Shown piece by piece: positions 8,685 through 34,102 of a stretch of DNA of 45,597 bases. Under the pieces are notes generated by a model. The model was given only the letters and a program-made list of their open reading frames with translations. It made no database searches and had not been told where the DNA came from. The translations under genes and the position numbers were made by a program. Where the stretch lies: the NCBI GenBank assembly GCA_003228915.1, contig QIGL01000091.1, positions 1 through 45,597 on the forward strand, written 5' to 3'. How positions within the stretch are numbered: the first letter of the stretch is position 1; each line of letters opens with the position of its first letter. This stretch comes from Acidiferrobacteraceae bacterium (GTDB lineage: Bacteria > Pseudomonadota > Gammaproteobacteria > Acidiferrobacterales > SZUA-150).

Positions 8685-8699
8685 ATTCTCTGCCCTGCC

Positions 8700-10880: not shown

Positions 10881-10920
10881 GATTCATTCTTGAATGTTTA
10901 GGTACATATAGTCGTCTGCA

Positions 10921-11286: not shown

Positions 11287-11305
11287 TATCTATGCTCCTG
11301 TTAAC

Positions 11306-13741: not shown

Positions 13742-13822
13742 TTAAAGCCTCGCTTAATGCTTGAATTAATACTTATATAAATGTCGATATGCGTCGGGCA
13801 TCATATAGATTGGATATATATT

Positions 13823-13839
13823 AGCAACCACCGTGCCAG
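13823..13839 (-). promoter_or_regulatory. Sigma-54 promoter for nirB-nirD-nasA
   Basis: Read on the minus strand: CTGGCACGGTGGTTGCT. It fits the RpoN consensus YTGGCACGRNNNTTGCW at every fixed position, with GG and GC ten bases apart. The predicted start near 13812 leaves a leader of about 70 nt before nirB. Confidence 0.85.
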
Positions 13840-13933
13840 TATTTAATTAAACCCTGATATTCCAATAACTGTTTGTTTTTGTTAGTATTAATCACGATAT
13901 TTCAGCCACTATGAATTATCTATTAAGTGATTA

Positions 13934-13950
13934 TGCACTATAATGGTGCA
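13934..13950. promoter_or_regulatory. NtrC binding site
   Basis: TGCACTATAATGGTGCA matches the NtrC consensus TGCACYNNNNTGGTGCA at every defined base. It lies about 95 bp upstream of the nirB sigma-54 promoter and about 180 bp upstream of the narK one. It could serve as a shared enhancer; no second good site was found. Confidence 0.8.
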
Positions 13951-14128
13951 ATACTGGGTTCTATGCCTCCTGACGGGACAAAATTACCATTCCTTGGGCC
14001 TGGCGCTACCTGTGCCAGTCCGGATACCAGAAAAAGACAGCGGCGCTTTTATGCGCAATATAAAGGATCAAATCAAAATTTTCGCGATAAATTTATTTGC
14101 TGTGCCCAAAAAAGAAGCAAAAAAAAAC

Positions 14129-14145
14129 TTGGCACGGCGATTGCT
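14129..14145 (+). promoter_or_regulatory. Sigma-54 promoter for narK
   Basis: TTGGCACGGCGATTGCT fits the RpoN consensus exactly, with GG at 14131-14132 and GC at 14143-14144. The predicted start is near 14156, about 42 nt before the transporter's GTG. Confidence 0.85.
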
Positions 14146-14148
14146 AAC

Positions 14149-14164
14149 AACCACTTGAGTGGTT
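14149..14164 (+). promoter_or_regulatory. Perfect 6-bp hairpin at the predicted narK transcript start
   Basis: AACCAC-TTGA-GTGGTT, a perfect stem with a 4-base loop, spans the start expected from the sigma-54 element. It may be an operator or a 5'-end structure, or it may be chance. Confidence 0.35.
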
Positions 14165-14197
14165 TTAATTTCAAACAAGTTACAGGAGTAGTTTTTA

Positions 14198-15667
14198 GTG
14201 TCAGGTCAGAAAATAAATCTGTTTTCATTCTCGGGAAATATTCGCATTCTGCATTTGAGCTGGTTTGCGTTTTTCCTGACCTTTGTCATGTGGTTCAGTT
14301 ATGCGCCACTACTGTCCGCAATCAGGGAAACACTGCAATTAACCGATCAACAGGTAAAGACCCTGCTGATCCTGAATGTAGCGCTGGCCATTCCCGCCCG
14401 GATAATTGTCGGCATGCTGGTGGATGCCTTTGGTCCCCGGCGCATGTTTGCATTGTTGCTCGTGATTTCCAGCTTTATCAGTTTTGGTTTTGCCTTTGCC
14501 GAAGATTATGAACAGCTGGCACTCATGCGTTTTTTGATGGGATTTACCGGCGCCGGTTTTGTTATCGGCATTCGTATGATTAGTGAATGGTTCCCGGCCA
14601 AACAGCTTGGGCTGGCCGAAGGCATTTATGGTGGCTGGGGAAACTTTGGCTCGGCGGCAGCAGCTATTAGCCTGCCGACATTGGCGCTTTTATTTGGCGG
14701 TGAAAATGGCTGGCGTTACGCCATTGCCAGTACCGGTGTTATTTCCGCCATCTATGCCGTGATCTGGTTCTTTTCAGTCAGTGACACACCCAAAGGCTCG
14801 ACTTATTTCAAGCCCAAAAAAAGCGGCGCCATGGAAATTTCCAGTCCAGGTGATTTTTTCCTGTACCTGGTTGTACTGCTACCCCTGTTCGCCGCCCTGG
14901 CCGTACTGACCTGGAAACTGGGACCAGCAAACCTGGCCATGTTAAGCGCTAATACGGTTTACCTTATTTACGGCAGCTTGTTGGCTATTTATATTTTCCA
15001 GGTTTTTAGGATATACCAGATTAACCGACATGTATTTTCTGCGCCTGTCCCGGAAATAGAGCGTTATAATTTTAAACAGGTAGCAGTATTGAATCTTGCC
15101 TACATGGTGACCTTTGGTTCAGAACTGGCTGTTGTTTCCATGTTGCCATTATTTTTTATGGACTCATTTAATTTATCGGCGGTCATGGCCGGGCTGATCG
15201 CTTCCATATTTGCCGGGCTCAATCTAATCATGCGCCCTGCCGGCGGTTTAATCAGCGATCGGTATGGCCGTAAATCTTCTTTAATCGTCATACTGGTTGG
15301 ACTGGCTGTGGGTTATGTATTCATGAGTTTTATGGATGGTAGCTGGCCGTTACTGGGCGCCGTTGCGGTTACGATTTTTAGTTCCCTGTTTGTGAACGCC
15401 GGTAACGGTGCAGTGTTTGCTGTCATTCCACTTGTGAAACGGCGCCTCACAGGCCAGATTGCCGGTATGGCCGGTGCTTATGGCAATGTCGGTGCCGTGG
15501 CATTTCTGACGATATTTTCTTTTGTTCCCACCCAGGTTTTTTTCCTGGTCATTGCCGGTACCTCGGTGTTCTCCTTGCTGGCCGTCGCTTTTTTTATGGA
15601 TGAGCCCAGGGGACAAATGGCTGAGGTGTTGCCGGATGGTACGGTGCAAATGATTGACGTCCATTAG
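14198..15667 (+). CDS. narK: Nitrate/nitrite transporter, MFS family
   Basis: 489 residues with about 12 membrane segments. Both nitrate-porter signature regions are present: GGWGNFGSAAAA (near residue 146) and NAGNGAVFAVIPLVKRR (near 398), with a later GAYGNVGAV. The protein brings nitrate into the cytoplasm for NasA. GTG at 14198 was chosen because AGGAG lies at 14184-14188. A longer frame starting at 13927 overlaps this gene but runs through the promoter elements and is not real. The gene is divergent from nirB, with its own sigma-54 promoter. NarK and NasA-type porters are hard to separate by sequence alone; the context favours assimilation. Confidence 0.92.
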   Translation: MSGQKINLFSFSGNIRILHLSWFAFFLTFVMWFSYAPLLSAIRETLQLTDQQVKTLLILNVALAIPARIIVGMLVDAFGPRRMFALLLVISSFISFGFAFAEDYEQLALMRFLMGFTGAGFVIGIRMISEWFPAKQLGLAEGIYGGWGNFGSAAAAISLPTLALLFGGENGWRYAIASTGVISAIYAVIWFFSVSDTPKGSTYFKPKKSGAMEISSPGDFFLYLVVLLPLFAALAVLTWKLGPANLAMLSANTVYLIYGSLLAIYIFQVFRIYQINRHVFSAPVPEIERYNFKQVAVLNLAYMVTFGSELAVVSMLPLFFMDSFNLSAVMAGLIASIFAGLNLIMRPAGGLISDRYGRKSSLIVILVGLAVGYVFMSFMDGSWPLLGAVAVTIFSSLFVNAGNGAVFAVIPLVKRRLTGQIAGMAGAYGNVGAVAFLTIFSFVPTQVFFLVIAGTSVFSLLAVAFFMDEPRGQMAEVLPDGTVQMIDVH

Positions 15668-21324: not shown

Positions 21325-21338
21325 TTGATCTGCATCAA
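21325..21338. promoter_or_regulatory. Perfect FNR/Anr-type box
   Basis: TTGAT-CTGC-ATCAA matches the FNR consensus TTGAT-N4-ATCAA exactly. It lies about 98 bp upstream of the PAS-LuxR start codon and shares two bases with the 20-bp operator at 21337-21356, so FNR and a second regulator could compete or cooperate here. Confidence 0.65.
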
Positions 21339-21356
21339 TGATGTTATTGCATCATT
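21337..21356. promoter_or_regulatory. Cluster operator, site 1
   Basis: AATGATGTTATTGCATCATT, with inverted AATGATG/CATCATT arms. It matches sites 2 (22384-22403) and 3 (32349-32368) in length and arms; differences are confined to the central bases. It lies upstream of the PAS-LuxR gene, consistent with autoregulation. Confidence 0.7.
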
Positions 21357-21435
21357 AGTCTACAACAGTGTCCTGGGGCAGTACTTTTTTATATGGCCGG
21401 GTTTTGACGCGCGGTCAGAACCTGAGAGGTCTATC

Positions 21436-22062
21436 ATGGCCAACCTTGCAGACTTGCTTTTTCGCACAGTGGACGGTGTTTTTGCTGTCAATGCTCAGCA
21501 GAAAATCGTCTTCTGGAATTCTGGTTGTGCCCAGTTATTCGGCACGCCTGCCAACGAAGCGCTCGGCCGCCCATGTTGCCAGGTTGTGCGGGGGAAGGAT
21601 CCCACCGGACAGCCCTTTTGTGGAGGGGGGTGTTGCATGTCTCGATTAAGCCATGGCGAGGACATTCACGGGACGTTTCCACTTCGGGTATATAATAACG
21701 AAGACAAAGAAATGAGGTTCTCGGTAAACATCGTGCTCGTGCCGTCCCGCCGCAAGGATCGCTGGACATGTGTGCACCTGCTTCATAGAGAAGGCGCAAC
21801 GGATACCCTTGATGTACTGGAATACAATTCAAATAACAACAGTCGCCCGTCTCCTCTTGCGATCTCTTCACTGACGGCACGGGAACAGGAAATTCTTCAG
21901 CTACTGGCAGAGGGTCTTGCCGTTTCGATAATGTCTGAGTTGTTAAACATCAGTCGCGTGACAGTACGGAATCACCTGCAACATATTCAGGCGAAACTCG
22001 GTGTACATAGCCAGGTGGAAACCGTGGCCTATGCATATCGACATAACCTGGTCCAGTATTAG
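21436..22062 (+). CDS. Cys-rich PAS-LuxR transcriptional regulator
   Basis: 208 residues from ATG 21436, chosen for the GAGAGG sequence upstream; a TTG-initiated frame from 21325 would run over the FNR box and operator. Residues about 5-115 are a PAS domain with cysteines at 31, 47, 48, 62, 66 and 67, in the pattern CCQVVRGKDPTGQPFC then GGGCC. Residues about 140-208 are a LuxR/GerE helix-turn-helix (LTAREQEILQLLAEG and ISRVTVRNHLQHIQAKLGV). There is no receiver domain, so the signal is probably sensed directly. I infer that the Cys group senses redox or reactive sulfur and that the protein binds the 20-bp palindrome found three times in this cluster. Confidence 0.85.
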   Translation: MANLADLLFRTVDGVFAVNAQQKIVFWNSGCAQLFGTPANEALGRPCCQVVRGKDPTGQPFCGGGCCMSRLSHGEDIHGTFPLRVYNNEDKEMRFSVNIVLVPSRRKDRWTCVHLLHREGATDTLDVLEYNSNNNSRPSPLAISSLTAREQEILQLLAEGLAVSIMSELLNISRVTVRNHLQHIQAKLGVHSQVETVAYAYRHNLVQY

Positions 22063-22088
22063 CCATAACCACTAAATAGGGGACAGCA

Positions 22089-22361
22089 ATGGTAAAAAAG
22101 ATTGCCGTACTTGTCAGGGACAGACAGGGTGAAGCGCTCAGGATGGCGCTTGGGCTCACCCTGGTGGACGATATTATCGATGTATATATGCTTAACGGGA
22201 AGTTTACAGCGACAGAACAGGATCGCCTCAACCTTGGGATAATGAAGGAACTGGATATGAAAATAATCTCCAATGTGAAAGAAAACGAGGGCGCGGAATA
22301 CCTTTCAACCCGGGAGATAGCGCACAAACTGCCTGAGTACGACCATGTTTTGCCTTATTAA
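22089..22361 (+). CDS. DsrE-like small protein
   Basis: 90 residues beginning KKIAVLVRDRQGEALRMALGL, a Rossmann-like DsrE/F-type start, and ending YDHVLPY. No cysteine is present, so it lacks the conserved sulfur-carrying Cys of DsrE/TusD and may act as a structural or regulatory subunit. It lies 26 bp downstream of the regulator gene, with GGGGA before ATG 22089, and is probably co-transcribed with it. The family call rests on the motif, length and the neighbouring DsrE/H-like genes. Confidence 0.6.
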   Translation: MVKKIAVLVRDRQGEALRMALGLTLVDDIIDVYMLNGKFTATEQDRLNLGIMKELDMKIISNVKENEGAEYLSTREIAHKLPEYDHVLPY

Positions 22362-22383
22362 TTCAAAACCACCCTCCCGCAAA

Positions 22384-22403
22384 AATGATGCAAATGCATC
22401 ATT
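22384..22403. promoter_or_regulatory. Cluster operator, site 2
   Basis: AATGATGCAAATGCATCATT, with ATGATGC/GCATCAT arms around AAAT. It is identical in all 20 bases to site 3 (32349-32368), and the likeness extends into flanking AAA and CATT. It lies 187 bp upstream of the second DsrE-like gene and probably drives the large sulfur-carrier operon. Confidence 0.75.
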
Positions 22404-22570
22404 TCATTGGCCAACTTCTCGTTTTAGTATTTTTCATGACTTATATAGGCTGGCAAAGTAGTTTGTTTGCGAGGCAGGGGTAGCGTGTGCATCTACAGCA
22501 AGTCCGCGATTAAAGATGCTGGGGCACGGCAAGTGCTTAAGGCGGGCTGTCACTGGTTACGGGGCCAAAA

Positions 22571-22873
22571 ATGAAACTGGGAATCCTGGTAAATACGGAT
22601 AAACATCTTGAGCACCTGCTGGGAATCTCAAAGGCCGCCATAGCCAAAAATCATGAGGCAAGTATTTTTGTCATGGATGAGGGAACGAGGTTGCTGGAAA
22701 CTGATTTATTTGTTGCGCTGGCGAAACTGCCATCCGTATCGGTAACACTTTGCGAGCACAGCGCAAATAGTTACGGCATTAATACAAAAAATCTATCGGA
22801 GGACATCAGCTGTGCCAGCCAGTTTAACAACGCAATGATGAGCCATGATGCTGACAGGATGATTGTTTTATAG
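22571..22873 (+). CDS. DsrE/DsrF-like small protein
   Basis: 100 residues: MKLGILVNTDKHLEHLLGI, then ASIFVMDEGTRLL, an alternating beta-alpha pattern typical of DsrE-like folds. Cysteines are in TLCEHSA (about residue 60) and ISCASQF (about residue 80), which could carry persulfide. Its ATG overlaps the stop of a possible 29-codon leader frame (22485-22574). It is the first substantial gene after operator site 2 and is followed six bases later by the 58-residue DsrH-like gene. Assignment to DsrE/F is by pattern and context. Confidence 0.65.
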   Translation: MKLGILVNTDKHLEHLLGISKAAIAKNHEASIFVMDEGTRLLETDLFVALAKLPSVSVTLCEHSANSYGINTKNLSEDISCASQFNNAMMSHDADRMIVL

Positions 22874-22879
22874 GACGCC

Positions 22880-23056
22880 ATGAAAATGAAAATACTTCAT
22901 ATTTTAAATGATGGTCCAACCGAATTGTCCGATCAAATGATCGATCTGAATTCCAATGAGCACCAGATAGAGGTCGTTAATCTTGGAGAAAAAGCAATCT
23001 CGTATGACGAGCTCGTCGACAAAATATTTTCCTGTGAGCGGGTCATCTCCTGGTAA
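22880..23056 (+). CDS. DsrH/TusB-like mini-protein
   Basis: 58 residues: M-K-M-K-I-L-H-I-L-N-D-G at the start and KIFSCERVISW at the end. The LHIL opening and the final Cys...ISW are typical of DsrH/TusB, though the protein is only about 60% of their usual length. The Cys six residues before the terminal Trp could be the active thiol. AGGA precedes the ATG at good spacing, and the gene starts six bases after the DsrE-like gene. With the two preceding genes it gives an E/F/H-like trio. It is too short for common length cut-offs. Confidence 0.65.
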   Translation: MKMKILHILNDGPTELSDQMIDLNSNEHQIEVVNLGEKAISYDELVDKIFSCERVISW

Positions 23057-23141
23057 TGGACCACAGAATAGTTTCGATGCGTGCTCGTAAGAAAGAGTAA
23101 AGACGGGAAGATGTACCACGAGAATCGGAGGCATATTATTA

Positions 23142-24983
23142 GTGAGCGGAACCGATCAGAATCATGTTGGCGATTCGATCCCCTGGTTGCAGTGGCGGCC
23201 GTGGGCCGGTATTGCTTTTCCTGTTGACCACAAAATTTTTGGCTTAAACAAAAGCAAACCAGAACAAAATATCGACACGCTCCTGATCATCCTGATCTCC
23301 CTGTTGACCCTTACCACATTTCTTGCACTTTTTGTCTTTCGTTCACTGGATGACAATCGCCTCACAAGCTGGCAGTGGGTATTCGCCGGCGATGATGCCC
23401 TTAAAATTGTGTTTATACTTGTTATCGGTGTTTTCCTTGCCTACGTAGTTTCCAGTATTTCCCTGTCAATACGCAAGCCGGCGATAGGGCTTTTTATTTT
23501 CTCATTTATTATTTCCGCACTCTCCTGGGCAGAACCAGAGGTGATCGTCGATGCATCAAGGTATTTCGTGCAGGCCAAGTTTCTCGAACTGTATGGTATT
23601 GGTTATTTCTTTAGCGAGTGGGGAAAAGAAATTGCAGTGTGGACAGATTTGCCGCTTGTGCCATTACTTTACGGCCTTGTTTTTAAATTTTTCGGTGAAC
23701 ACAGGATCGGCATCCAGTTATTTAACAGCTTACTATTTTCCGGAACGGCAGTACTGACTTACCTGATTGGCAAAACATTATGGAATGAAACTGTTGGTTT
23801 ATATGGCGGCGTGCTGCTTCTCGGGATACCTTTTTTGCTTACCCAGGTGCCGCTCATGCTGGTTGATGTTGCCACCATGTTCTTCTTTACACTCGCCCTG
23901 TTCACGACCATCAAGGCCGTCAAACAAGGCGGCACAGCGCTGCTGTTATTAGCATCAGTCACGATCGTGCTGGCGATGTTAACCAAGTATTCGGTCTGGC
24001 TGATGCTTAGTGTTATCCCTGTCGTTTTTGTGTCTCATTTTGAATACGGGAAAAAAACTCTTCTCCGACGTGCAACCGTAATAACACTGGCGACATTTTT
24101 CCTGATCGGGATAGTTCTGCTCTGGAATTTTAATGTATTTGCAGAGCAACTGAAGTTGCTCCTGAATTACCAGGTGCCCGGGCTTAAACGCTGGGGCGAG
24201 AGCCTTGCCTCGACCTTTTTCTTCCAGGTACACCCCTACATTACCCTGGCCGCATTATTTTCAACCTATGTAGCCATCAGGAAAAAAGATCTCAAGTTTT
24301 TAATTATTGGCTGGTTACTGCTGCTCGTTATTGTGCTGGAAATAAAACGGGCACGATACCTCATTGTGATTTTTCCGATGCTGGTTTTGATGGCGGCCTA
24401 CGGAATCAATGAAATCAGAAATGTAAAAATAAACAGGTTTATTGTTTCATCTACCGTCGCCTCGGCACTCGTAATAACGTTTTTTGGATACCTGCCTTTT
24501 TTACAAAAAACCAGTGCAATTAACCTGAGCCAGGCCGGGAAATATCTCGATTCCATAGACACCGGTAAAACACAAGAAATCGAAGTGATAACACTGCCCC
24601 AGGCAAACACAATCGTTAACCCTGCGGTGTCAGTACCTGTGCTCGATTTATTTACCCAAAAGACACTTGTATATCGCGATGACAAAGGTCTGATTCCAGA
24701 CCCACGATTAATCGAAAAATCACCGTTAAGATTTACCTGGGCATACAGGAATCCTAAATTCTTTTCTCAATACTTTTTTACCAATGGCGGCACATCCCCT
24801 GGCATATTAAAGAAACGTATCCCGGTGGTTATCATTTTTGGTGACGCCAGCCAGGCTAATTCTCAGGGTATATCGGATCAAATAACGAAGCGAATAGAGG
24901 GTTATCGTCTGGCCAAAGAATTAACGATAATCGATAAAGTGTTCAGGTATCAGACGCTGATTCGGGTGTACCAACCCGTATAA
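23142..24983 (+). CDS. GT39-like (ArnT/PMT-type) membrane glycosyltransferase
   Basis: 613 residues with about 11-12 membrane segments followed by a hydrophilic C-terminal domain of roughly 140 residues (from about 470). The segments IVDASRYFVQAKFLE and WTDLPLVPLLYGLVFKFFG resemble the periplasmic acidic loop and first conserved region of the ArnT/PMT_2 family. Such enzymes move a sugar from a polyprenyl-phosphate carrier to lipid or protein on the periplasmic side. GTG 23142 has GGAGG upstream. A glycosyltransferase between sulfur-carrier genes is unusual and suggests a glycosylated product or protein. The acceptor is unknown. Confidence 0.75.
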   Translation: MSGTDQNHVGDSIPWLQWRPWAGIAFPVDHKIFGLNKSKPEQNIDTLLIILISLLTLTTFLALFVFRSLDDNRLTSWQWVFAGDDALKIVFILVIGVFLAYVVSSISLSIRKPAIGLFIFSFIISALSWAEPEVIVDASRYFVQAKFLELYGIGYFFSEWGKEIAVWTDLPLVPLLYGLVFKFFGEHRIGIQLFNSLLFSGTAVLTYLIGKTLWNETVGLYGGVLLLGIPFLLTQVPLMLVDVATMFFFTLALFTTIKAVKQGGTALLLLASVTIVLAMLTKYSVWLMLSVIPVVFVSHFEYGKKTLLRRATVITLATFFLIGIVLLWNFNVFAEQLKLLLNYQVPGLKRWGESLASTFFFQVHPYITLAALFSTYVAIRKKDLKFLIIGWLLLLVIVLEIKRARYLIVIFPMLVLMAAYGINEIRNVKINRFIVSSTVASALVITFFGYLPFLQKTSAINLSQAGKYLDSIDTGKTQEIEVITLPQANTIVNPAVSVPVLDLFTQKTLVYRDDKGLIPDPRLIEKSPLRFTWAYRNPKFFSQYFFTNGGTSPGILKKRIPVVIIFGDASQANSQGISDQITKRIEGYRLAKELTIIDKVFRYQTLIRVYQPV

Positions 24984-25032
24984 GCTCTATCCAGTATTGA
25001 GCAGTGAATTAATTTGCTACAGGAGAGATTAA

Positions 25033-26475
25033 ATGACTGAGAATGCAGTTAATAAAGGTGAAAGGAAAAACCGTTTCTGGGCCTTTTTTGTATTGGGCTT
25101 TTTTGCCCTGGTCAGTATTACGACCTTCGCTTATAACGAATATTACATTTATCTTTCTATTTACCTGTGGTTTGGTTTGATATATGGACTGGCCCTACAG
25201 TATGGCCGGTTCTGTTTTTCCTCCGCTTTCCGGGATCTGTTTGCGGTTGGTGTTGCCAGAATGGCGGTTGGAATCACCATCGCCATTGTGCTTTTTGCAC
25301 TTGTTGCTTCCCTGGTGACCGCCCAGGGTTTAAGCACCTTTCACCCTGCCCCCTCTGGCATTCACGCAGTGATCGCCGGGGTTATCTTTGGAATGGGGAT
25401 GGTGATTGCCGGTGGTTGCGCCTCTGGCTCTTTGTATAAAACCGGTGAAGGCAATATGAATGCCTTGATTGTGGTTTTCTCCATCAGTGTGTCCCAGGCT
25501 TTATTTGTCGACGTCGGCGGATGGGCCAACAATCTTGTCCCGGAGTCATGGCATCACTCGGCTATTGCAAAGGGACTGCCAGCGTCAATCAACGTGGGCG
25601 ACGGATGGATGGATCAGTACCTGGCGGGTTATGTCTGGAATCATCCAGTGACAACCTTCGCAAAAATGCTGGGCTGGGACAATTCCTCGGCATTGGGAGC
25701 GATCGTGGGTAATTTCTTCCTTGGTGTCCTGGTGCCCTCGGCATTACTACTGGCCGTGGTTTATTTTGTCTGGTCGCGCAAAGCCTTTGTCAGGAAAAGA
25801 GTCAAGGCGGGCCAGGAAAAGATGACGATGCTTGATGAGGTGAAAGGCTATTGGGCGATGTTATCGGCCTCCAAGCGAACGGCGATCGCAGGCCTGGTTA
25901 TTGGTGTTGCAGCAGGGTTGCACATGCTGGTGCTGCAAGGGGCGCGGGTTAAATTTGGCGTTAAGAATGCAGGAGCACTGCTGGAGAGAATGGGTTTCGA
26001 TTATGGCATATCGGTTAACGGAACCGTTTTCGATCCCGGTTATTGGTATGTAACAACCCAGGAGGCGCAGTGGGTCGGCTGGTTGTTGCAGAAAACGACT
26101 GGTGCCAATTATATGGATAACGTGTTTTTTGGTTATGTGAATGGCATTCCCAATCCTGCCATCAATCCTGCGGACTGGATGTCCCTGGCAACCATTGGCG
26201 GTGCCGCCATCATGGCATTGTTATACGGTGAATTTAAATTCAAAAAACCAACCCTTGAGCTTGCTACCTGGGCGATCATCGGCGGCACATTGATGGGCAT
26301 TGGTGCCCGGCTGGCGCTCGGCTGCAACATCGGCGCCTTTTTTATCCGGGTCGCGAACGGTGATCCCTCCGGATGGTTATTTGGTATTGGCATGGTTCCC
26401 GGTGCGTATATTGCGGTTAAGTTCTTTAACTGGTGGACCGAAAGAAAAATGGCAAAACAAGGTTTTGGTTTGTAA
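25033..26475 (+). CDS. YeeE/YedE-family sulfur (thiosulfate) transporter
   Basis: 480 residues, polytopic. The family's cysteine motifs are visible: Cys61 in YGRFCFSSAFRD, Cys129 in GGCASGSLYKTGEG and Cys431 in ALGCNIGAFF. In the characterised YeeE (TsuA) such cysteines pass thiosulfate through the membrane. AGGAG lies upstream of ATG 25033. A tusA-like gene follows 23 bp downstream, the same pairing as YeeE-YeeD, so import of thiosulfate or a related sulfur species and hand-over to TusA is the likely role. At 480 residues it is longer than E. coli YeeE (about 350), with an added middle section near residues 240-330. Confidence 0.88.
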   Translation: MTENAVNKGERKNRFWAFFVLGFFALVSITTFAYNEYYIYLSIYLWFGLIYGLALQYGRFCFSSAFRDLFAVGVARMAVGITIAIVLFALVASLVTAQGLSTFHPAPSGIHAVIAGVIFGMGMVIAGGCASGSLYKTGEGNMNALIVVFSISVSQALFVDVGGWANNLVPESWHHSAIAKGLPASINVGDGWMDQYLAGYVWNHPVTTFAKMLGWDNSSALGAIVGNFFLGVLVPSALLLAVVYFVWSRKAFVRKRVKAGQEKMTMLDEVKGYWAMLSASKRTAIAGLVIGVAAGLHMLVLQGARVKFGVKNAGALLERMGFDYGISVNGTVFDPGYWYVTTQEAQWVGWLLQKTTGANYMDNVFFGYVNGIPNPAINPADWMSLATIGGAAIMALLYGEFKFKKPTLELATWAIIGGTLMGIGARLALGCNIGAFFIRVANGDPSGWLFGIGMVPGAYIAVKFFNWWTERKMAKQGFGL

Positions 26476-26498
26476 TTTAAAAAACCAAAGGAGATAAC

Positions 26499-26750
26499 AT
26501 GGCTATGAAATTCGAAAAAGTAAATGAAGGCAATTATCATTTGGATGTAACGGGCTATGTTTGTCCGCACCCGCAGATTTATACCAAGAAGGCGCTGGAA
26601 AGAATCGAGCCAGGTGATGTGTTACAGGTGATATTCGATAACCCGTCTTCCGGTGAATCGATTTCAACCATGTGTGAAAACACAGGCGATGAGATTGTCG
26701 ATAAGAAAAAAGAAGGTGGTCAATTTATATGGAGCATAGAAAAATGTTAA
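26499..26750 (+). CDS. TusA-family sulfur carrier protein
   Basis: 83 residues with the signature LDVTGYVCPHPQIYTKKAL: Cys22 in a CPxP motif, where the family carries a persulfide. A second Cys is the last residue (IWSIEKC). It lies directly downstream of the YeeE/YedE gene. Family knowledge: TusA/YeeD proteins accept sulfur from a transporter or rhodanese and pass it to DsrE-like partners. ATG 26499 follows AAAGGAGA; an internal ATG at 26505 is possible. Confidence 0.92.
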   Translation: MAMKFEKVNEGNYHLDVTGYVCPHPQIYTKKALERIEPGDVLQVIFDNPSSGESISTMCENTGDEIVDKKKEGGQFIWSIEKC

Positions 26751-26768
26751 TTAGAGAGGTAGCGTGCA

Positions 26769-26954
26769 ATGAAAAATGATCTTTGGGTTGTGATTGTAAT
26801 TACGCTGGGCTTTATTGGATTCCTGATGGGCTATAGTCTTCCGCCCCTGGTAGAGACAGGCATGTTAACTGGTAAAGGAGGACAGGCTCAGGAGGTACAA
26901 AATCTGGACAAGGACATGGCACAGTATTACCGCGATTTGTCTAAAGACGAATAA
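26769..26954 (+). CDS. Single-pass membrane mini-protein, paralogue 1
   Basis: 61 residues: MKNDLW, one hydrophobic helix (VVIVITLGFIGFLMGYSL), a Gly/Gln linker, and a charged tail ending QYYRDLSKDE. No known family recognised. The neighbour at 26997 has the same build: MKN-x-[I/L]-W start, one helix containing GFLxGYS, and a YYR-x-L end. The helix-out tail probably faces the periplasm or cytoplasm as a short docking peptide. It is 18 bp after tusA. A subunit of the transporter or a scaffold is possible; a modified peptide is less likely. Confidence 0.65.
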   Translation: MKNDLWVVIVITLGFIGFLMGYSLPPLVETGMLTGKGGQAQEVQNLDKDMAQYYRDLSKDE

Positions 26955-26996
26955 AATAGTACAGATCTACACGACTGTGGATAAAGGAGCAGAGTA

Positions 26997-27206
26997 TTGA
27001 AAAACAAAATCTGGGCGTTAATCGCGCTGATAACGGGACTGCTGGGTTTTCTCGCAGGTTACAGCATATCGTCAACCACTGGTGTCGAACCGGGGTTTTT
27101 TGAGGCCGTGGAGACAGGCAGTTATGGCGGTGGTGGTGGCGAAGAAACTATCGAGGGGGTCAGTGCAGAAGACCAGGAGTACTACCGAAAATTGCAGGAA
27201 GAGTAA
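26997..27206 (+). CDS. Single-pass membrane mini-protein, paralogue 2
   Basis: 69 residues from a TTG start at 26997 with GGAG eight bases upstream. It has the sequence MKNKIWALIALITGLLGFLAGYS, then a stretch containing five consecutive Gly (GSYGGGGGEE) and an acidic tail ending QEYYRKLQEE. It is clearly related to the preceding gene, so a local duplication is likely. Its stop codon overlaps the ATG of the flavoprotein gene by one base, suggesting translational coupling. No family recognised. Confidence 0.65.
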   Translation: MKNKIWALIALITGLLGFLAGYSISSTTGVEPGFFEAVETGSYGGGGGEETIEGVSAEDQEYYRKLQEE

Positions 27207-28702
27207 TGCCAGGTGCTCCCATGGACGCCAGACGTAACCAGACAAATGATGTGATCATCCTGGGTGCCGGCCTTGCGGGTCTCGGCGCCGGTTATGCCTT
27301 AAGTATTTCTAATTCCAGCTCCGACACAAATGTTCTTGTCATCGAGGCAGGTAAAACAGTCGGTGGTCTGGCAAAAACAATAAACCGCAACGGTTTTAGA
27401 TTCGATTTAGGGGGTCACCGGTTTAAAACAAACAAACCAAAAATAGAGCAGTTGGTCAGGAATATCATGGGGCACGAATTACTTGTCGTCAATCGATCCA
27501 GCAAGATCTTGCTGCGCGACAAATATTTTGACTACCCGTTAAAACCGCTTAATGCCATTTCCGGATTTGGCATTGCGACGACCTCAAGAATCCTCCTGGA
27601 ATATACGGCCGGGTTACTAAAACAACCATTTGTGAATGAAAAAATCGTTTCCCTTGAAGACTGGGTTGTTCATCATTTCGGCCGCACCCTGTTCAATATT
27701 TATTTCAGGGAATACAGCGAAAAAGTCTGGGGCATAAATTGTAACCGGATTTGCATGGAGTGGATGGAACAGCGCATCCAGAAACTTTCACTTGGCAAGG
27801 CCATTAAAAAGGCGCTGTTTAAATACAGTGGCAAAAACAACGGTATGCACACCCTGGCAAGTGAATTTCTTTACCCCTCCCTGGGTATCGGGCGCATAGC
27901 CAACAGACTGAAACAAGAGATCGAAAAAAATAATACCGTGCTCACCAATTCCCGTGTTGTGCGGATTAACCATAATGGCAACAGAATAGAAAATGTCACC
28001 ACCCGGTCTGGCCCTGCTAATAACAAAATGAACGCCCAGGCTTGTGACCACGGTGGTAATGAATTCATATCCAGCATACCGGTGGCCACGCTGGTGCAGT
28101 TGTTACATCCAAGACCACCGACAGAGATACTTGAGGCCGCATCAAAACTCAAATACAGGGACCTGGTAATCGTGACCATCATGCTTAACCGCGAGCGAGT
28201 CACCGACCAGACCTGGGTCTATCTCCCGGAGCAAAAGATTCCCTTCGGCAGGATTCATGAGCCAACAAACTGGAGCAACAAAATGGCGCCCCCGGGCAAG
28301 ACCCTGCTGGTCACCGAGCATTTCTGTTTTCGTGGCGATAAAACCTGGAGTGCCAGTAACGAGGAACTGGCCGAGAAGACCGTTAGCAATCTCGTCACCC
28401 TGGGTTTTATTAAAAGGCACGAAGTACTCGACAAGGTGGTGTTACGCATCCCCAGGGCTTACCCGTTATTCGAAGTTGGTTACACTAAACAGCTGGAAAA
28501 GATATGCAAGTATCTCGATCGCTATGGCAACCTGCGTTTGATTGGACGGGGCGGCATGTTCCGCTACTACAACATGGACCATACCCTTGAGTCCGGTATC
28601 AGCGCCGCTGAAGCCTTGATGGCCAACAAGCCCGAATTATTCAACCCCGAACTACTCGACCAGGGAAGGAATGAAACTTTCCAGACAGGCACAGACTCAT
28701 GA
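27206..28702 (+). CDS. FAD-dependent oxidoreductase, UDP-galactopyranose mutase / amine oxidase superfamily
   Basis: 498 residues. The N-terminal FAD-binding pattern IILGAGLAGLGAGYALS is followed by VIEAGKTVGGLAKT and FDLGGHRF, which is typical of UDP-galactopyranose-mutase-like and protoporphyrinogen-oxidase-like flavoproteins. A C-terminal IGRGGMFRYYNMDHTLESG closes the FAD site. Related proteins often lie in glycan gene clusters with unknown substrates. The stop overlaps the ATG of the next gene (ATGA), so the two are translationally coupled. A sugar or polyprenyl substrate would fit the neighbouring glycosyltransferases. Confidence 0.78.
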   Translation: MPGAPMDARRNQTNDVIILGAGLAGLGAGYALSISNSSSDTNVLVIEAGKTVGGLAKTINRNGFRFDLGGHRFKTNKPKIEQLVRNIMGHELLVVNRSSKILLRDKYFDYPLKPLNAISGFGIATTSRILLEYTAGLLKQPFVNEKIVSLEDWVVHHFGRTLFNIYFREYSEKVWGINCNRICMEWMEQRIQKLSLGKAIKKALFKYSGKNNGMHTLASEFLYPSLGIGRIANRLKQEIEKNNTVLTNSRVVRINHNGNRIENVTTRSGPANNKMNAQACDHGGNEFISSIPVATLVQLLHPRPPTEILEAASKLKYRDLVIVTIMLNRERVTDQTWVYLPEQKIPFGRIHEPTNWSNKMAPPGKTLLVTEHFCFRGDKTWSASNEELAEKTVSNLVTLGFIKRHEVLDKVVLRIPRAYPLFEVGYTKQLEKICKYLDRYGNLRLIGRGGMFRYYNMDHTLESGISAAEALMANKPELFNPELLDQGRNETFQTGTDS

Positions 28703-30168
28703 AAGTTGTGCTAATCCACCCGGCGTGGTCGCCTGAAGAAATATTTCCTTCCAAAACCGTTGCCTCACAAATCAATTACTGGCAACCACTGGGTACCCTG
28801 TACGTGGGCGCCAGTCTGCTCAGGGCCGGTCATGAAGTAAAATTTTTTAACGGTGCCTTCATGCCCCATGAAGAATTATTGCGGCGCGTAAAAGAATTCA
28901 AGCCGGATTTTGCCGGTCTTTATTCGACCACCTTCGGCTGGCCAAAGGCCGTGAAAACTGCCGACGCCATTAAACAGATTGATAAAAAAATATTTACCTG
29001 TGTCGGTGGGCCTTACCCGATCGCCATGCAGGAACAATGTCTAAACGACGAAAGCCGCAACATCAATGCTGTGATCACGGGCGAAGCGGAAATCACTATG
29101 GTCGAGTTGCTGACCAGCTTACATCACGGAAAAAATCCCCATGGGGTACAGGGGGTGGTCTTCAGGCAAGGGATGAACATCATTAAAAACCCGCCGCGGC
29201 CGTTAAATGAAAACCTGGACGCACTGCCCTTCCCTGCCCGGGAACTGCTGGGCGATATGAATCAATATATGCCACCGCCGGCAACCTATAAACGAAAACC
29301 GGTCACCATTCTTATTACTTCCCGGGGTTGTAACAGGCGATGTATTTTTTGTTTCCAGATCGACAAAAACAGAAACAGTGGCAAGCGTGGCATTCGCTTC
29401 CGTAGTGTTGAAAATGTTTTGCAGGAAATCGAACTTTGTCTCAAGCAGGGTTACCGTGAAATCAAGTTTATTGACGATACCTTTACCGCCGATTATGACC
29501 GGGCCATGGCGATATGCCGAGAGATCAAAGCGCGGCGGCTTGATTTCACCTGGTTCGCCTCTGCCTGTATCAATCAGGTGGACAAAACCCTGCTCCAGGC
29601 CATGAAAGATGCGGGTTGTTGGGCCATCCTGTTTGGTGCCGATAGTGGTGTCCAGAAAACCCTGAACGCACTCCGGAAAGCCACTACCCTCGACCAGATA
29701 CGACGGGATGTGCTTGCCGCAAAAGCGGTCGGGTTAAAAGTCAGTACACCATTTATATTCGGCGCACCGGGAGAAACTTATGCGGACGGTTTAAAAACCA
29801 TTGAATTTGCCGTCGAGCTGGACGCCGACCTGGCAAACTTTCATGCCCTGACACCCTTTCCGGGCACTTATCTCTATGACAACCTGGACAAGTTCGGGTC
29901 GGTCTCTGGCGATCTCTCGGATCGCAACTATCAATCGGCGGCGTTTGTCCCCTACTCCATGACCCGCGATGAAATCCTGACCCTGCGCCAGCTGGCATTC
30001 AGACGCTTTTACTCCCGGCCAGTTTTTCTATTTAGAAGGCTATTGGAAATCAGAACCCTGAATGATTGCAAAGTCGCCATCAGGGGTATCAAGAGCCTGT
30101 TCTGGCTCTGGACGGGTACTAAATTGTTTCACAAACGTAAAGGAGGTGTGCTAACTCGTGCTGGATGA
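28699..30168 (+). CDS. B12-binding-type radical SAM enzyme (BchE/HpnJ-like class)
   Basis: 489 residues. The first 140 form a Rossmann-like cobalamin-binding-type domain (VVLIHPAWSPEE, then PLGTLYVGASLLRAGHEV). The radical SAM motif SRGCNRRCIFC gives Cys211, Cys215 and Cys218 for the 4Fe-4S cluster. The region ALTPFPGTYLYDNL and an EAD..FHA-like context match the BchE/HpnJ class of methyl- or ring-forming enzymes. The DxHxxG cobalamin ligand motif is not evident. It is the last plus-strand gene of the operon and converges on the SPASM radical SAM gene, whose 3' end it overlaps by 40 bp. Substrate unknown. Confidence 0.85.
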   Translation: MKVVLIHPAWSPEEIFPSKTVASQINYWQPLGTLYVGASLLRAGHEVKFFNGAFMPHEELLRRVKEFKPDFAGLYSTTFGWPKAVKTADAIKQIDKKIFTCVGGPYPIAMQEQCLNDESRNINAVITGEAEITMVELLTSLHHGKNPHGVQGVVFRQGMNIIKNPPRPLNENLDALPFPARELLGDMNQYMPPPATYKRKPVTILITSRGCNRRCIFCFQIDKNRNSGKRGIRFRSVENVLQEIELCLKQGYREIKFIDDTFTADYDRAMAICREIKARRLDFTWFASACINQVDKTLLQAMKDAGCWAILFGADSGVQKTLNALRKATTLDQIRRDVLAAKAVGLKVSTPFIFGAPGETYADGLKTIEFAVELDADLANFHALTPFPGTYLYDNLDKFGSVSGDLSDRNYQSAAFVPYSMTRDEILTLRQLAFRRFYSRPVFLFRRLLEIRTLNDCKVAIRGIKSLFWLWTGTKLFHKRKGGVLTRAG

Positions 30169-31262
30169 GCGCTTTGTATCTGCACATACTCTTTGACCAG
30201 GGTTGGGTACAACCGCGGATTAAACAGGATGTTGGTAATAAAATAACATTCGTGTGTGCAGTAACAACGATTGTTATCAATTGAATCCAGCACGGGTTGG
30301 GCCATTTCGGAGTGAACGACTTTTTTCATGTCGTAGTCATAATCCCTGACATTACCGAAACTCGTCGACAAAATCTCGCACGGGTACACCTGCCCGGTCT
30401 CCGTCAATACCAGGTTTAATTTGCCGGCATAACAGGGAATCTGTCTTTGCCGATCAAGCAATGTCTGGTGGATCAAACGCCGCTGTAAAATATCCTGGGC
30501 CGCCTTCAGGCGGGCACCACGAAACCGGTATATGTTCGACGTTTGGTTTTTAAGATTGCTCTCAAGCCGGTTAATCGCACGGTGGTATTTTTCGTGATCT
30601 ACTTCTTTATAGTGTGCATCCGCAAGGTTGCCGCGCACCATTGAAATAGTATGCGTTTTAACATTCGCCATGGTTTGTACAAAATCAATAATCTCGTCCA
30701 TTTTGTCCTGGTTCTCGGAACAAAATACCGTATTGACGCCCAGTTCAAAATTTTCATACTTCGCCAACAGGTCGCCAAGCTGCTCATATGTGCACATGGT
30801 TTTATCAAAGTTACCCGGTGTATTTCGTAACACATCGTGATCGCTGTGCAGGCCATCAAGGGAAAGTTTGACGGTCACCACAGACTTTTTGCAGTATTTT
30901 AAAATTTGTTCTGTTTTATCTCTGATTAAATCTGGCATCAGGCCATTAGTAGGAAAAAGCATAAAAACGGGGCTGTTTTGTTCGTAAAAAACTCTGCTGA
31001 TTTCCACGAGATCCCTTCTCAGGTACGGCTCACCACCGGAGAATGCCAGCCACAACAGTTTGTCCATTGATGCCGATATTTTTTTAATTTCGTCAAGTGA
31101 AAGTTCTGCTGCGTCGGTATTGTCATTTTCTGCATTACTGGTGTTGTCTACATAAAAACAAAATGGACAGCGGGCATTACACCTGCGGGTGACAAAAAAA
31201 GTGAGTTGAACGGCTTGCCCTTTCGAGAGAATTGAACCGCTATGGCGCAGTGGTGAAAACAT
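30129..31262 (-). CDS. Radical SAM/SPASM-domain enzyme
   Basis: 377 residues. Cys28, Cys32 and Cys35 in TRRCNARCPFC bind the radical SAM cluster. The C-terminal region (about 285-345) has the SPASM-type cysteines: IPCYAGK, VYPCEIL and NRCYCTHECYF. SPASM enzymes act on peptides, proteins or small molecules. Its ATG overlaps the stop of the GT2 gene, so the two are coupled. Its 3' end overlaps the opposing B12-type radical SAM gene. No obvious precursor peptide is encoded nearby, although the two mini-proteins at 26769-27206 cannot be excluded as substrates. Confidence 0.85.
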   Translation of the reverse strand: MFSPLRHSGSILSKGQAVQLTFFVTRRCNARCPFCFYVDNTSNAENDNTDAAELSLDEIKKISASMDKLLWLAFSGGEPYLRRDLVEISRVFYEQNSPVFMLFPTNGLMPDLIRDKTEQILKYCKKSVVTVKLSLDGLHSDHDVLRNTPGNFDKTMCTYEQLGDLLAKYENFELGVNTVFCSENQDKMDEIIDFVQTMANVKTHTISMVRGNLADAHYKEVDHEKYHRAINRLESNLKNQTSNIYRFRGARLKAAQDILQRRLIHQTLLDRQRQIPCYAGKLNLVLTETGQVYPCEILSTSFGNVRDYDYDMKKVVHSEMAQPVLDSIDNNRCYCTHECYFITNILFNPRLYPTLVKEYVQIQSAHPARVSTPPLRL

Positions 31263-32266
31263 CAGGTGTTCTCCTGTAATACGCGCCTGCCAACAAAGTG
31301 CCTGGCTAACCCGGCAAGCGCACCAAGACCGACCGCCACCGGGTAGATCAACAGGTAATAAGCTGTCGCGACCAACGCAAACTTGAATCCCCTGGTGCGG
31401 TAAAATGCTGTCAGCAAGCCCCTGTTCACAAACAGGTTGATGGCCAGTAGCAATAAGACGAGTAATATGAGAACACTATTACCTGTTAAATAATAAGCAA
31501 GCAAAAATAAGCCAATGGCAAACCAGGCAGTTACATTTGTTTTCAGGCCTATGGATGCCGTGCCGGAATCTACAAACACATCGCCGTAATTTATGGAGTA
31601 CATGGTCCAGTACATGGATTTCCTGATGGCATTAGACAAAGAACGATACAGGGAAAAATTAAATATGTGCTGCACCTGGATGGCCGGGTTTATAACAAGC
31701 CGGTATCCTTGCTCGCGCAACCGGTGGCTGAAGTCGACATCTTCAATTATCGGCAGGAACTTCTCGCTGAAGCCACCACTCTTGTGAAAACTTTCGGCAT
31801 TGATGACCATTGCATGGGTGGCAATATAATCAGGGTGATCTACTTCCCTGGTCTCTGAATAATTTACAAAAACGGACTGAAACAGGCTAAAGAAGTTGTT
31901 GTCGAATGGAAAAGACGTGTAGCTGCCACCAATAACAGTGTTGGGGTCTGCCGAAGACATGGCCTGGTTGACAAGCGCAAGGGTGTTTTCCTGAAGCAGG
32001 CAATCGGCATCAGTAAAAAAAATCATATCACCGCTACTATGAGTGGCCCCGATATTCCTTGCCCGTGCAGCACCGGCATGTGAGGCCAGACGGATGAGTT
32101 TACAAGGGAATTTTTTTATCACTTCGACCGAGTCATCTCTGGAACAGTCATCGACCACAATGACCTCGAAGTTTTGATACCTGGAGGCAAATACGGCTTC
32201 GAGACACCTGGCTATCGTGGCGCCCCCTTGATAGTTGGGAATAATTACCGAGATAAATTTTTCCAT
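31262..32266 (-). CDS. Family 2 glycosyltransferase with C-terminal membrane helices
   Basis: 334 residues. The GT-A domain begins VIIPNYQGGATIARCLEA, with VDDCSRDDSVE and the metal-binding DAD in FFTDADCLL. Residues about 230-320 include three or four hydrophobic helices, so the enzyme is anchored to the inner membrane and probably acts on a lipid-linked acceptor. It is the first gene of a two-gene minus-strand operon with the SPASM enzyme, starting downstream of the shared regulatory region that carries operator site 3. Confidence 0.85.
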   Translation of the reverse strand: MEKFISVIIPNYQGGATIARCLEAVFASRYQNFEVIVVDDCSRDDSVEVIKKFPCKLIRLASHAGAARARNIGATHSSGDMIFFTDADCLLQENTLALVNQAMSSADPNTVIGGSYTSFPFDNNFFSLFQSVFVNYSETREVDHPDYIATHAMVINAESFHKSGGFSEKFLPIIEDVDFSHRLREQGYRLVINPAIQVQHIFNFSLYRSLSNAIRKSMYWTMYSINYGDVFVDSGTASIGLKTNVTAWFAIGLFLLAYYLTGNSVLILLVLLLLAINLFVNRGLLTAFYRTRGFKFALVATAYYLLIYPVAVGLGALAGLARHFVGRRVLQENT

Positions 32267-32657
32267 ATACCAACTCTACTCCAGTGACCTCCAAAGTGCC
32301 TGCAAAAATCACGCTTTATGCATTGTGCATCATCCTGGTGCCGGGAAAAATGATGCAAATGCATCATTCCATTTGGCATTGATTGGTATTCTAATGAGAC
32401 CTGCAAGTACTGGAAGTAAGGGCATTTTGGTTGTCCGGGCAGGCGTCTCGTAAAAAGGTGGGGGGCGGCCCGGAGCCGTCGTCGAGCGTGAGATGGAGAA
32501 AGTGAAAGTACCCTGGATGATGTCACACACGCTCTGCGCCCAACCAGACAGCTCAGAAAGAATACTTTGTGAGAGGCAATGCTCGATGTGTGAGTGCCGG
32601 TTATGAGTAACAGGAAAGTGGTTAGAGATATTTTAAATGGTTAACTGGAGGTGGATC
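32267..32657. other. Divergent regulatory region between GT2 and rhodanese genes
   Basis: 390 bp without a gene. It contains operator site 3 (32349-32368), 83 bp from the GT2 start codon and about 290 bp from the rhodanese start codon. The rest, 32440-32640, includes a GC-rich stretch with no recognised gene or structure. Confidence 0.6.
32349..32368. promoter_or_regulatory. Cluster operator, site 3
   Basis: AATGATGCAAATGCATCATT, identical to site 2 about 10 kb away. The flanks are also alike (AAA before, then YCATT with TGG soon after). Placed between divergent genes, it could control the GT2-SPASM operon, the rhodanese gene, or both. Confidence 0.75.
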
Positions 32658-33671
32658 ATGAACAAGTTACGAAAATTGAGAATTTCTGCTATGGGAATTC
32701 TGATACTTTTTCTTATGGGTTGGGCAGGAGTCGCCTCGGCGTCGAGCTGGACAAATCCTGATCTTCTTGTCACGCCAGATGAAGTCAAGAAAAACATCAA
32801 GAAAGCAAATTGGACGGTTGTTGATTGCAGGGGCCTGGATGATTATGCCAAGGGCCATATTCCTGGCGCCATCAGCCTCGGTAAACGCTGCAAGAAGGCC
32901 TTGCGGGACCAAACCGCGAGGGTTTTTCAGGATACTTCAAAATATGAAAAACTTTTTGGTAAAGTTGGTATCGGCAATAAAACCCACGTGGTTTTTTATC
33001 ATGGAGATATCAAGACCTTGACAGATGCCACCGTCGGATTCTGGATCATGGAGTATCTCGGGCACGATAAGACCCACGTTCTCAACGGGGGCATCGAAGC
33101 ATGGCGCAAGGCGGGCAACCGGCTCGACAACAAACCGGTTAAGAAGAGCCCTAAAAAATTCAAGGCCAAGGTCGTCTCCAGCAGGTATGCCGCAACAAGT
33201 GAAATTGTAAAAATTGCCAATGGCCAGATTAAAAACGTACAACTTATCGATTCAAGAACAAAAAAGGAATATGACGGTAAGGACATCCGGGCAATCAGGG
33301 GTGGTCATATACCCAATGTGACCATGAATAAATCACATGTAGATACCGTGCTGCAGAAAAAAGACAGGAAGACCGGGAAAATGAAACCTACCGGTTACCT
33401 TGATGCAAACCAGGCTCACAAGGTATTTGGCAAACTGAACAAAAACAAACGCACCGTCGCCTACTGCCAGACGGGTACGCGTTCAACCCTGACTTATCTC
33501 CAGCTAAGGCTGCTTGGCTTCAAGAATCCTGCAAACTGGGATGACTCATGGAGGGTCTATGGCTCCACGCTGATGTATCCTGTTGCCAATGAGCAATGGT
33601 TTAATTTTGCCAAGATGAATAAAGAAATGAAAAAGCTCAAGAAAAAACTCAAGAAACTGGAAAAGATATAA
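32658..33671 (+). CDS. Secreted tandem-rhodanese sulfurtransferase
   Basis: 337 residues from ATG 32658, which has GGAGG at 32647-32651; a TTG/ATG-region start further upstream lacks this. The N-terminus is a signal peptide ending ASA-SS, so the protein is periplasmic. Two rhodanese domains follow: residues about 30-155 (inactive; VVFYHGD where the Cys loop should be) and about 165-315 with Cys270 in the active loop CQTGTRS. The last 20 residues are a Lys-rich helix (KEMKKLKKKLKKLEK) that could bind membranes or a partner. It moves sulfane sulfur between thiosulfate or a similar donor and a thiol. A strong terminator follows. Confidence 0.9.
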   Translation: MNKLRKLRISAMGILILFLMGWAGVASASSWTNPDLLVTPDEVKKNIKKANWTVVDCRGLDDYAKGHIPGAISLGKRCKKALRDQTARVFQDTSKYEKLFGKVGIGNKTHVVFYHGDIKTLTDATVGFWIMEYLGHDKTHVLNGGIEAWRKAGNRLDNKPVKKSPKKFKAKVVSSRYAATSEIVKIANGQIKNVQLIDSRTKKEYDGKDIRAIRGGHIPNVTMNKSHVDTVLQKKDRKTGKMKPTGYLDANQAHKVFGKLNKNKRTVAYCQTGTRSTLTYLQLRLLGFKNPANWDDSWRVYGSTLMYPVANEQWFNFAKMNKEMKKLKKKLKKLEKI

Positions 33672-33758: not shown

Positions 33759-33953
33759 TCAGGCGATTTTTTTATTTATGTCTTCAAGAAGCGAAGCAAG
33801 ATTCATATCTTTTTCTTTGGCCAGCCTTGCCATTGTCCACATCATACTTGAATCATGACCGCAACCACACAACCCCAGGTCCATGAACCAATCCGTCAAT
33901 TCCGGATAGTCTCTTAGTACGGTACCTACAGTTGTTGTAGCATCAATTTCCAT
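33759..33953 (-). CDS. DUF1858-like small cysteine protein
   Basis: 64 residues from ATG 33953 (MEIDATTTVGTVL); TTG 33962 and GTG 33956 are in-frame alternatives. The layout DYPELTDWFMDLGLCGCGHD resembles the DUF1858/ScdA-N helical domain, in which a small Cys/Gly-rich segment follows the second helix. Such domains accompany Fe-S or redox proteins. It is convergent with the rhodanese gene, so it may belong to the sulfur cluster by location, but it has no operator copy. Confidence 0.7.
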   Translation of the reverse strand: MEIDATTTVGTVLRDYPELTDWFMDLGLCGCGHDSSMMWTMARLAKEKDMNLASLLEDINKKIA

Positions 33954-34102
33954 CACGGCCAAAAATATAGTTCATGGATAGATTGTATCTTAAAATCATA
34001 CGGTTTAGTAAGGTAACCAGTCGTACCAACCCCAGTGCTATTATCAGGGATAATGGCAATGGGAGTAATCAGTAATAGAATAACAACAGGAGCTTGTCAT
34101 CA

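Follow-up and report, generated by a model that had tools for sequence, protein, structure and literature searches.

Gene content of the locus

The window analysed here, 45,597 nucleotides of contig QIGL01000091.1 from an Acidiferrobacteraceae bacterium (assembly GCA_003228915.1), contains a gene cluster in which genes for sulfur transport and transfer are combined with genes for two radical S-adenosylmethionine (SAM) enzymes, a flavoprotein resembling UDP-galactopyranose mutase (UGM) and two glycosyltransferases (Table 1). Comparison with related loci strongly supports linkage and co-regulation of the sulfur and the biosynthetic genes. The bacteria that carry the cluster, in at least six lineages, probably build an undescribed cell-envelope component for handling sulfur.

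All of the genes named in an earlier note on this DNA are present, with intact reading frames. The main operon runs from dsrE_b to B12rSAM, and its sulfur and biosynthetic genes are interleaved. The gaps are 6 bp (dsrE_b to dsrH_c), 85 bp (dsrH_c to GT39), 49 bp (GT39 to YeeE), 23 bp (YeeE to TusA), 18 bp (TusA to mini1) and 42 bp (mini1 to mini2), followed by overlaps of 1 bp at the FAD gene and 4 bp at B12rSAM. These small distances place GT39 between the DsrE relay and YeeE, and B12rSAM as the last gene of the same operon. The SPASM and GT2 genes form a unit convergent to the main operon, and the rhodanese gene is divergent from GT2. The host genome is a gammaproteobacterial draft of 2.66 Mb. 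Judged by its sequence, the host is probably a Dsr-type sulfur oxidiser, because its dsrA scores above the family cut-off.

Table 1. Genes and putative operator copies of the cluster (window coordinates)
Feature	Position	Strand	Basis and remarks
Operator copy 1, AATGATGTTATTGCATCATT	21337..21356		5' of LuxR gene
PAS-LuxR regulator	21436..22062	+	Pfam GerE/PAS; motif GRPCCxxxRGKDxxGxxxCxGGC, Cys invariant; start corrected from 21325
dsrE_a, predicted DsrE-like fold, Cys-free	22089..22361	+	Predicted structure; no Pfam match
Operator copy 2, half-sites perfect	22384..22403		Ahead of main operon
dsrE_b, DsrE with active Cys61	22571..22873	+	PF02635
dsrH_c, small DsrH-like protein, 58 aa	22880..23056	+	Synteny; no Pfam match
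GT39, GT-C glycosyltransferase, PMT_2/GT39-like, ArnT-like fold	23142..24983	+	Pfam and model
YeeE, YeeE/TsuA/SoxT-family sulfur transporter	25033..26475	+	PF04143 (Sulf_transp); TsuA structure match
TusA sulfur carrier, Cys22	26499..26750	+	Pfam and Cys conservation
mini1, one-helix small membrane protein, GGYG family	26769..26954	+	No GGYG copies left (0)
mini2, one-helix small membrane protein	26997..27206	+	Single degenerate motif GSYGG
FAD gene, UGM-like flavoprotein	27206..28702	+	PRK07208.1-4 above NCBIfam cut-off; UGM structures
B12rSAM, B12-binding radical SAM enzyme, CxxxCxxC	28699..30168	+	Nearest solved structure AprD4
SPASM radical SAM enzyme	30129..31262	-	Invariant C28/C32/C35 and C277/C295/C333/C335/C339
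GT2 glycosyltransferase, membrane helices at C-terminus	31262..32266	-	
Operator copy 3	32349..32368		Between divergent GT2 and rhodanese
Secreted two-domain rhodanese, catalytic-type Cys277	32637..33671	+	PF00581; signal peptide

Conservation and co-occurrence of the gene set

B12rSAM was sought in 84,980 species genomes; there were 190 matches, and 80 loci were kept: 46 from Nitrospirota, 12 from Gammaproteobacteria, seven from Betaproteobacteria, six from Desulfobacterota/Deltaproteobacteria, two each from Rokubacteria and Actinobacteria, and five without clear taxon. Across phyla, these orthologs are surrounded by one and the same gene set, its order almost unchanged. Among the 57 loci whose upstream sequence spans 8 kb or more, YeeE was found in 56, TusA or a TusA-like protein in 54, the FAD gene in 50, and GT39 and dsrE_b in 46 each. 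Where the downstream sequence spans 2.6 kb or more (67 loci), SPASM was present in 47 and GT2 in 42.

Closer to the host, B12rSAM orthologs (61–91% identity; the next matches are at ~31%) occur in seven of 145 relatives, the window's own genome included, and a genome of the same genus carries one with 91% identity. The relatives with SPASM orthologs are precisely these seven. GT39 orthologs occur in six of the seven, the genome of the seventh (G055) being only 63% complete, and in one other relative. Genome G089 (86% complete) carries a GT39 ortholog at C83:3814-5112, and no B12rSAM ortholog was detected in it. The association with dsrA is weak (6 of 7 vs 64 of 138 relatives, P 0.056).

Co-occurrence extends to genomes in which the genes are unlinked. 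In 25 genomes, mostly without a local SPASM gene, SPASM was found elsewhere in the genome in 20. In 296 Nitrospirota genomes, B12rSAM was found in 64 and SPASM in 65; 58 had both, six had B12rSAM alone and seven had SPASM alone. Mirror-tree correlations of 0.09 to 0.77 were moderate and noisy, with partial open reading frames, and were left unused.

Gene order kept across phyla and genome-wide co-occurrence bear out the proposal of the earlier note that the cluster functions as a single system. They also speak against the view that two unrelated modules share a sulfur-metabolism island through history and horizontal gene transfer, with no joint function. The patchy distribution (7 of 145 relatives) would suit such a history, but the two halves are interleaved in one operon, stay linked when the type of YeeE and TusA is swapped, and share a conserved operator. 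We therefore regard this view as very improbable.

Several neighbouring genes were recorded. A DUF1858 (hybrid-cluster-protein-associated) mini-gene adjoins the rhodanese gene (window 33759-33962), and this family lies near the cluster in 8 of the 80 loci. A universal stress protein gene, such as L089:8013-8483, often lies between the GYG gene (described below) and FAD; the family is present in ~43 of the 80 loci, not in the window. There may be a second sulfur-linked system with a radical SAM enzyme at L044:8268-12954, where a large molybdopterin oxidoreductase, a GT2, a rhodanese (28%) and a YeeE-like protein adjoin a distant B12 radical SAM protein (30%). The window further holds a nitrate/nitrite assimilation island at 6834-15667, with NirB, a small Rieske-type protein, a molybdopterin oxidoreductase and NarK.

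A probable shared regulator and putative operator

The palindrome AATGATGCAAATGCATCATT precedes all three transcription units of the cluster, with a chance expectation of 0.02 per window at up to three mismatches. The copies at 21337, 22384 and 32349 agree with the shared operators that the earlier note had placed at both ends of the cluster and inside it. A search of the whole genome for AATGATGNNNNTGCATCATT returned, beyond these three copies, no site with fewer than two mismatches. Related loci totalling ~1.5 Mb contain sites with two or fewer mismatches at three positions only: the dsrE_a–dsrE_b interval, the GT2–rhodanese interval and, in the window's genus alone, 5' of LuxR. Such sites are present in 14 of 15 loci with LuxR vs 1 of 65 loci lacking it (Fisher P 1.5e-13, uncorrected for phylogeny), and the single operator-bearing locus without LuxR has lost its upstream end at a contig boundary.

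One assignment had to be revised. The LuxR reading frame had been started at TTG 21325, which sits upstream of the first palindrome, so that the gene would cross its own operator. Ortholog conservation points to ATG 21436 instead, giving 208 codons with three invariant cysteines, and operator copy 1 thereby falls in the LuxR promoter region.

Because the operator tracks LuxR and recurs at homologous positions, the tie of both halves to one regulator through this conserved putative operator is strongly supported. Joint expression of the sulfur and the biosynthetic genes is likewise predicted, since the halves alternate in one operon (gaps of -4 to 85 bp) and share operator positions in other genera. 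The earlier note had named lack of conservation and independent expression as refuting outcomes; the conserved gene set and the predicted joint expression point the other way on both.

The sulfur genes

In the window, yeeE, tusA, dsrE and two small partners form one syntenic block. YeeE matches the solved structure of the thiosulfate transporter TsuA, to which it is related. Cys22 of TusA is conserved in 60 of 60 sequences and the active Cys61 of dsrE_b in 48 of 48. All three frames of the DsrE/F/H-like trio described earlier are present, with a reservation for the first: dsrE_b belongs to PF02635 and the third frame is dsrH_c, but dsrE_a has neither a Pfam match nor a cysteine. Its AlphaFold model (predicted local distance difference test score, pLDDT, 88) is DsrE-like, with 2pd2 as nearest fold (template modelling score, TM, 0.71; weak E 8e-3).

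This block corresponds to the five-gene YTD cluster (yeeE–tusA–dsrEFH type II) as published (PMC12998232, PMC13293266, PMC13047784, PMC9751629). DsrEFH type II subtype 1 has been reported from Nitrospirota, Pseudomonadota and Actinomycetota (PMC13293266), a distribution that agrees with the taxa of our loci. By its gene content, the sulfur half thus matches a known cluster and is not new. Published views on YTD function conflict (PMC12998232 vs PMC13293266).

Within the literature searched, the earlier statement that no described pathway has this combination holds for the combination, but not for its sulfur half. The terms 'radical SAM' and glycosyl have zero occurrences in PMC12998232, PMC9751629, PMC13293266 and PMC13047784. 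Our literature search, which did not extend to subscription papers such as the original 2020 YTD paper, found radical SAM, TusA and YeeE together in no paper.

In one lineage, YeeE is of a short type and the YeeE/TusA type is replaced, whereas the linkage to the enzymes is kept. In this short-YeeE lineage, a divergent TusA-like protein with two terminal cysteines (e.g. L073:8361-8591) replaces TusA.

The biosynthetic enzymes

The flavoprotein matches UGM structures over most of its length (E 1e-30 for fungal UGM) and keeps the GGH motif. It is UGM-like only, since it scores 45.7 bits against the curated UGM model TIGR00031 and fails the cut-off of 303.75. B12rSAM belongs, by its CxxxCxxC motif and B12-binding domain, to the B12-binding radical SAM superfamily. 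Its nearest solved structure is the sugar dehydratase AprD4 (E 1.8e-29), and it stays below every curated family cut-off (AprD4 108.8 vs 500; HpnJ 196.7 vs 577.6; BchE 149.1 vs 481.35). In the SPASM enzyme, the radical SAM and auxiliary-cluster cysteines are invariant among 11 orthologs. GT39 is a PMT_2 (GT-C) protein without a match in a sequence search of solved structures. Its model (pLDDT 76) has a GT-C fold, with ArnT as nearest structure (5ezm, E 6e-7, TM ~0.5). GT2 has the usual DxD-type residues.

Two other roles were considered and rejected. A tetrapyrrole role was suggested by BchE-, AhbD/NirJ- and protoporphyrinogen oxidase (PPO)-like matches, and a hopanoid route by HpnJ and HpnR. 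The scores for both are far below the curated cut-offs, and neither role fits with the glycosyltransferases. Judged by family resemblance, the flavoprotein, the two radical SAM enzymes, GT39 and GT2 could jointly make an edited sugar and transfer it from a lipid carrier.

The GGYG-repeat membrane proteins

Both of the mini-proteins that the earlier note listed as unknown are present, but their family had been overlooked: they belong to a family of one-helix membrane proteins with GGYG repeats. Most loci have, in the interval from tusA to FAD, a gene for a 50–150 aa protein with a single helix at the N-terminus. GGYG repeats in series form the tail of this protein in Nitrospirota, Desulfobacterota and other groups. 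Across 30 tails, 211 of 217 tyrosines lie inside GYG (shuffled mean 31), and cysteine is absent. Tails encoded in the gamma- and betaproteobacterial loci retain no more than one or two motifs, such as GSYGG in mini2.

The repeats occur on other exported scaffolds as well. GYG-repeat lipoproteins are encoded in or beside the cluster at L079:8129-8464, L086:6220-6660 and L088:8258-8482, with AGYGDKAKEAV-like repeats in L079 and L086. An exported multiheme cytochrome (Cytochrome_C7; L110:19515-20525) carries three APGYG repeats just past its signal peptide, and its genome also encodes a GYG membrane protein.

The GYG protein was found in 36 of 296 Nitrospirota genomes, and all 36 are among the 64 with B12rSAM. 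This exclusive pairing might indicate a product akin to ribosomally synthesized and post-translationally modified peptides (RiPPs). B12rSAM and SPASM would then modify the GGYG tyrosines before export, by cross-linking, hydroxylation or otherwise, and the glycosyltransferases would finish the tail. In mycofactocin, MftF is such a finishing glycosyltransferase. The confinement of nearly all tail tyrosines to GYG, the recurrence of GYG on lipoproteins and a multiheme cytochrome, as expected for an enzyme recognition motif, and the match of SPASM to the peptide maturases SkfB, CteB and anSME would all be consistent with this idea. However, no RRE/PqqD domain was found in Pfam scans of the cluster proteins, the tails follow an N-in helix and are predicted to be exported, the closest matches of B12rSAM and the flavoprotein are sugar enzymes, and a lineage without GYG retains both radical SAM enzymes. 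Hence, we consider a RiPP-like product doubtful.

That same lineage, which keeps GT39, SPASM and GT2 where GYG is absent, would be easier to explain if the enzymes made a glycolipid or modified lipid A/lipopolysaccharide, possibly with sulfur donated by TusA, only to support YeeE or the envelope during sulfur stress. A separate scaffold for YeeE would then be the role of the GYG protein. ArnT, the nearest structure to the GT39 model, is a lipid A modifier, and a YbhN-like lipid membrane protein adjoins SPASM in L039. Yet GYG is tied to B12rSAM across Nitrospirota, and most loci have its gene in the tusA–FAD interval, which makes a lipid product an unlikely explanation.

Proposed function

The interpretation that we favour, although we hold it with slightly less than even confidence, is a conserved co-regulated system that would couple uptake of sulfane sulfur or thiosulfate to envelope modification, with the GYG tail as the best candidate acceptor. 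Its basis is comparative: gene linkage, genome-level co-occurrence, the conserved operator, the enzyme families and the GYG-tail family. The sugar product, the order of the steps, the GYG tail as acceptor and its sulfur-holding role are what we infer from these, and the products suggested in the earlier note (a sulfur-containing glycolipid, a thiolated or glycosylated envelope component, or a modified peptide) are likewise only candidates.

The route from YeeE over TusA to DsrEFH is established for relatives. In the proposed system, the secreted rhodanese would mobilise sulfur outside the cell, YeeE would import it, and TusA and the DsrEFH-type relay would pass it to cytoplasmic oxidation. GT2 would make a lipid-linked sugar, the UGM-like flavoprotein, B12rSAM and SPASM would edit it, and the ArnT-like GT39 would transfer the edited sugar to an envelope acceptor in the periplasm. 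The candidate acceptor is the GGYG-repeat one-helix membrane protein (mini1/mini2 in the window), whose modified tail might hold zero-valent sulfur or polysulfide beside YeeE. The Cys-bearing PAS-LuxR would sense the sulfur or redox state and control both halves via the AATGATGCANNTGCATCATT palindrome. Since the tails are free of cysteine, they could bind sulfur only via aromatic side chains or via a group added to them; this gives one, speculative, reason to expect a modification.

Several observations weigh against this coupling of sulfur uptake to envelope modification. Peptide maturases match the SPASM enzyme as well as any other proteins do, and the resemblance of the radical SAM and UGM-like enzymes to known families leaves the substrate unfixed. 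GT39, SPASM and GT2 frequently lie away from B12rSAM in Nitrospirota. The UGM-like gene is missing beside B12rSAM in several loci, and four such genomes have no strong ortholog. The Fisher values carry no correction for phylogeny. Finally, the lineage with short YeeE and divergent TusA keeps the enzymes, while the GYG protein went undetected genome-wide in most of its genomes. GYG therefore cannot be the sole acceptor; the tails are a likely acceptor, not an obligate one.

A more specific version is a pathway, so far undescribed, that would turn the GGYG tails of the membrane protein into a sulfur-binding glycoprotein, possibly with a thiosugar, through the two radical SAM enzymes, the UGM-like enzyme and both glycosyltransferases. 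This glycoprotein would capture polysulfide or zero-valent sulfur and pass it to YeeE. In this detailed form we consider the proposal unlikely. If true, it would connect insoluble sulfur outside the cell with cytoplasmic Dsr oxidation or disproportionation, a link that has been missing. Uptake of insoluble or polymeric sulfur and the role of YTD are live questions in sulfur oxidation and disproportionation. Here, a YTD-type module is tied to an envelope-biosynthesis module and a GGYG protein in many Nitrospirota and Proteobacteria and some Desulfobacterota. This linkage offers concrete genes, a candidate acceptor and a defined putative operator, and would assign roles to two radical SAM families that are now orphans.

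Comparison with known systems

In the literature searched, the combined system and its product are undescribed, while the sulfur half is known. It shares with the YTD cluster the syntenic YeeE/YedE, TusA, DsrE with conserved cysteine and two small partners. In contrast, the radical SAM enzymes, glycosyltransferases, UGM-like flavoprotein, GYG protein and putative LuxR operator present here do not appear in the searched text of the YTD papers (PMC12998232, PMC13293266, PMC13047784). TsuA-TsuB/SoxT import likewise combines a YeeE-family transporter with a TusA-like partner, but lacks envelope biosynthesis genes and has a SoxR-type regulator instead of PAS-LuxR (PMC11582611).

Small exported repetitive proteins also occur in sulfur oxidisers as the sulfur globule proteins SgpA-D (PMC10386293). 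The likeness is by analogy only, and the proteins described here differ by their one-helix anchor, GGYG repeats and linked enzymes. The mycofactocin and PQQ systems, which are SPASM RiPPs, similarly have SPASM beside GT2 and a small precursor-like protein. In our cluster, however, Pfam scans found no RRE, and the precursor-like protein is membrane-anchored, has many repeats and is linked to sulfur import. Aminoarabinose modification of lipid A by ArnC-ArnT shares the pairing of a GT2 with a GT-C membrane transferase of ArnT-like fold. In place of the Arn nucleotide-sugar enzymes, which it lacks, the present cluster has a UGM-like enzyme and two radical SAM enzymes.

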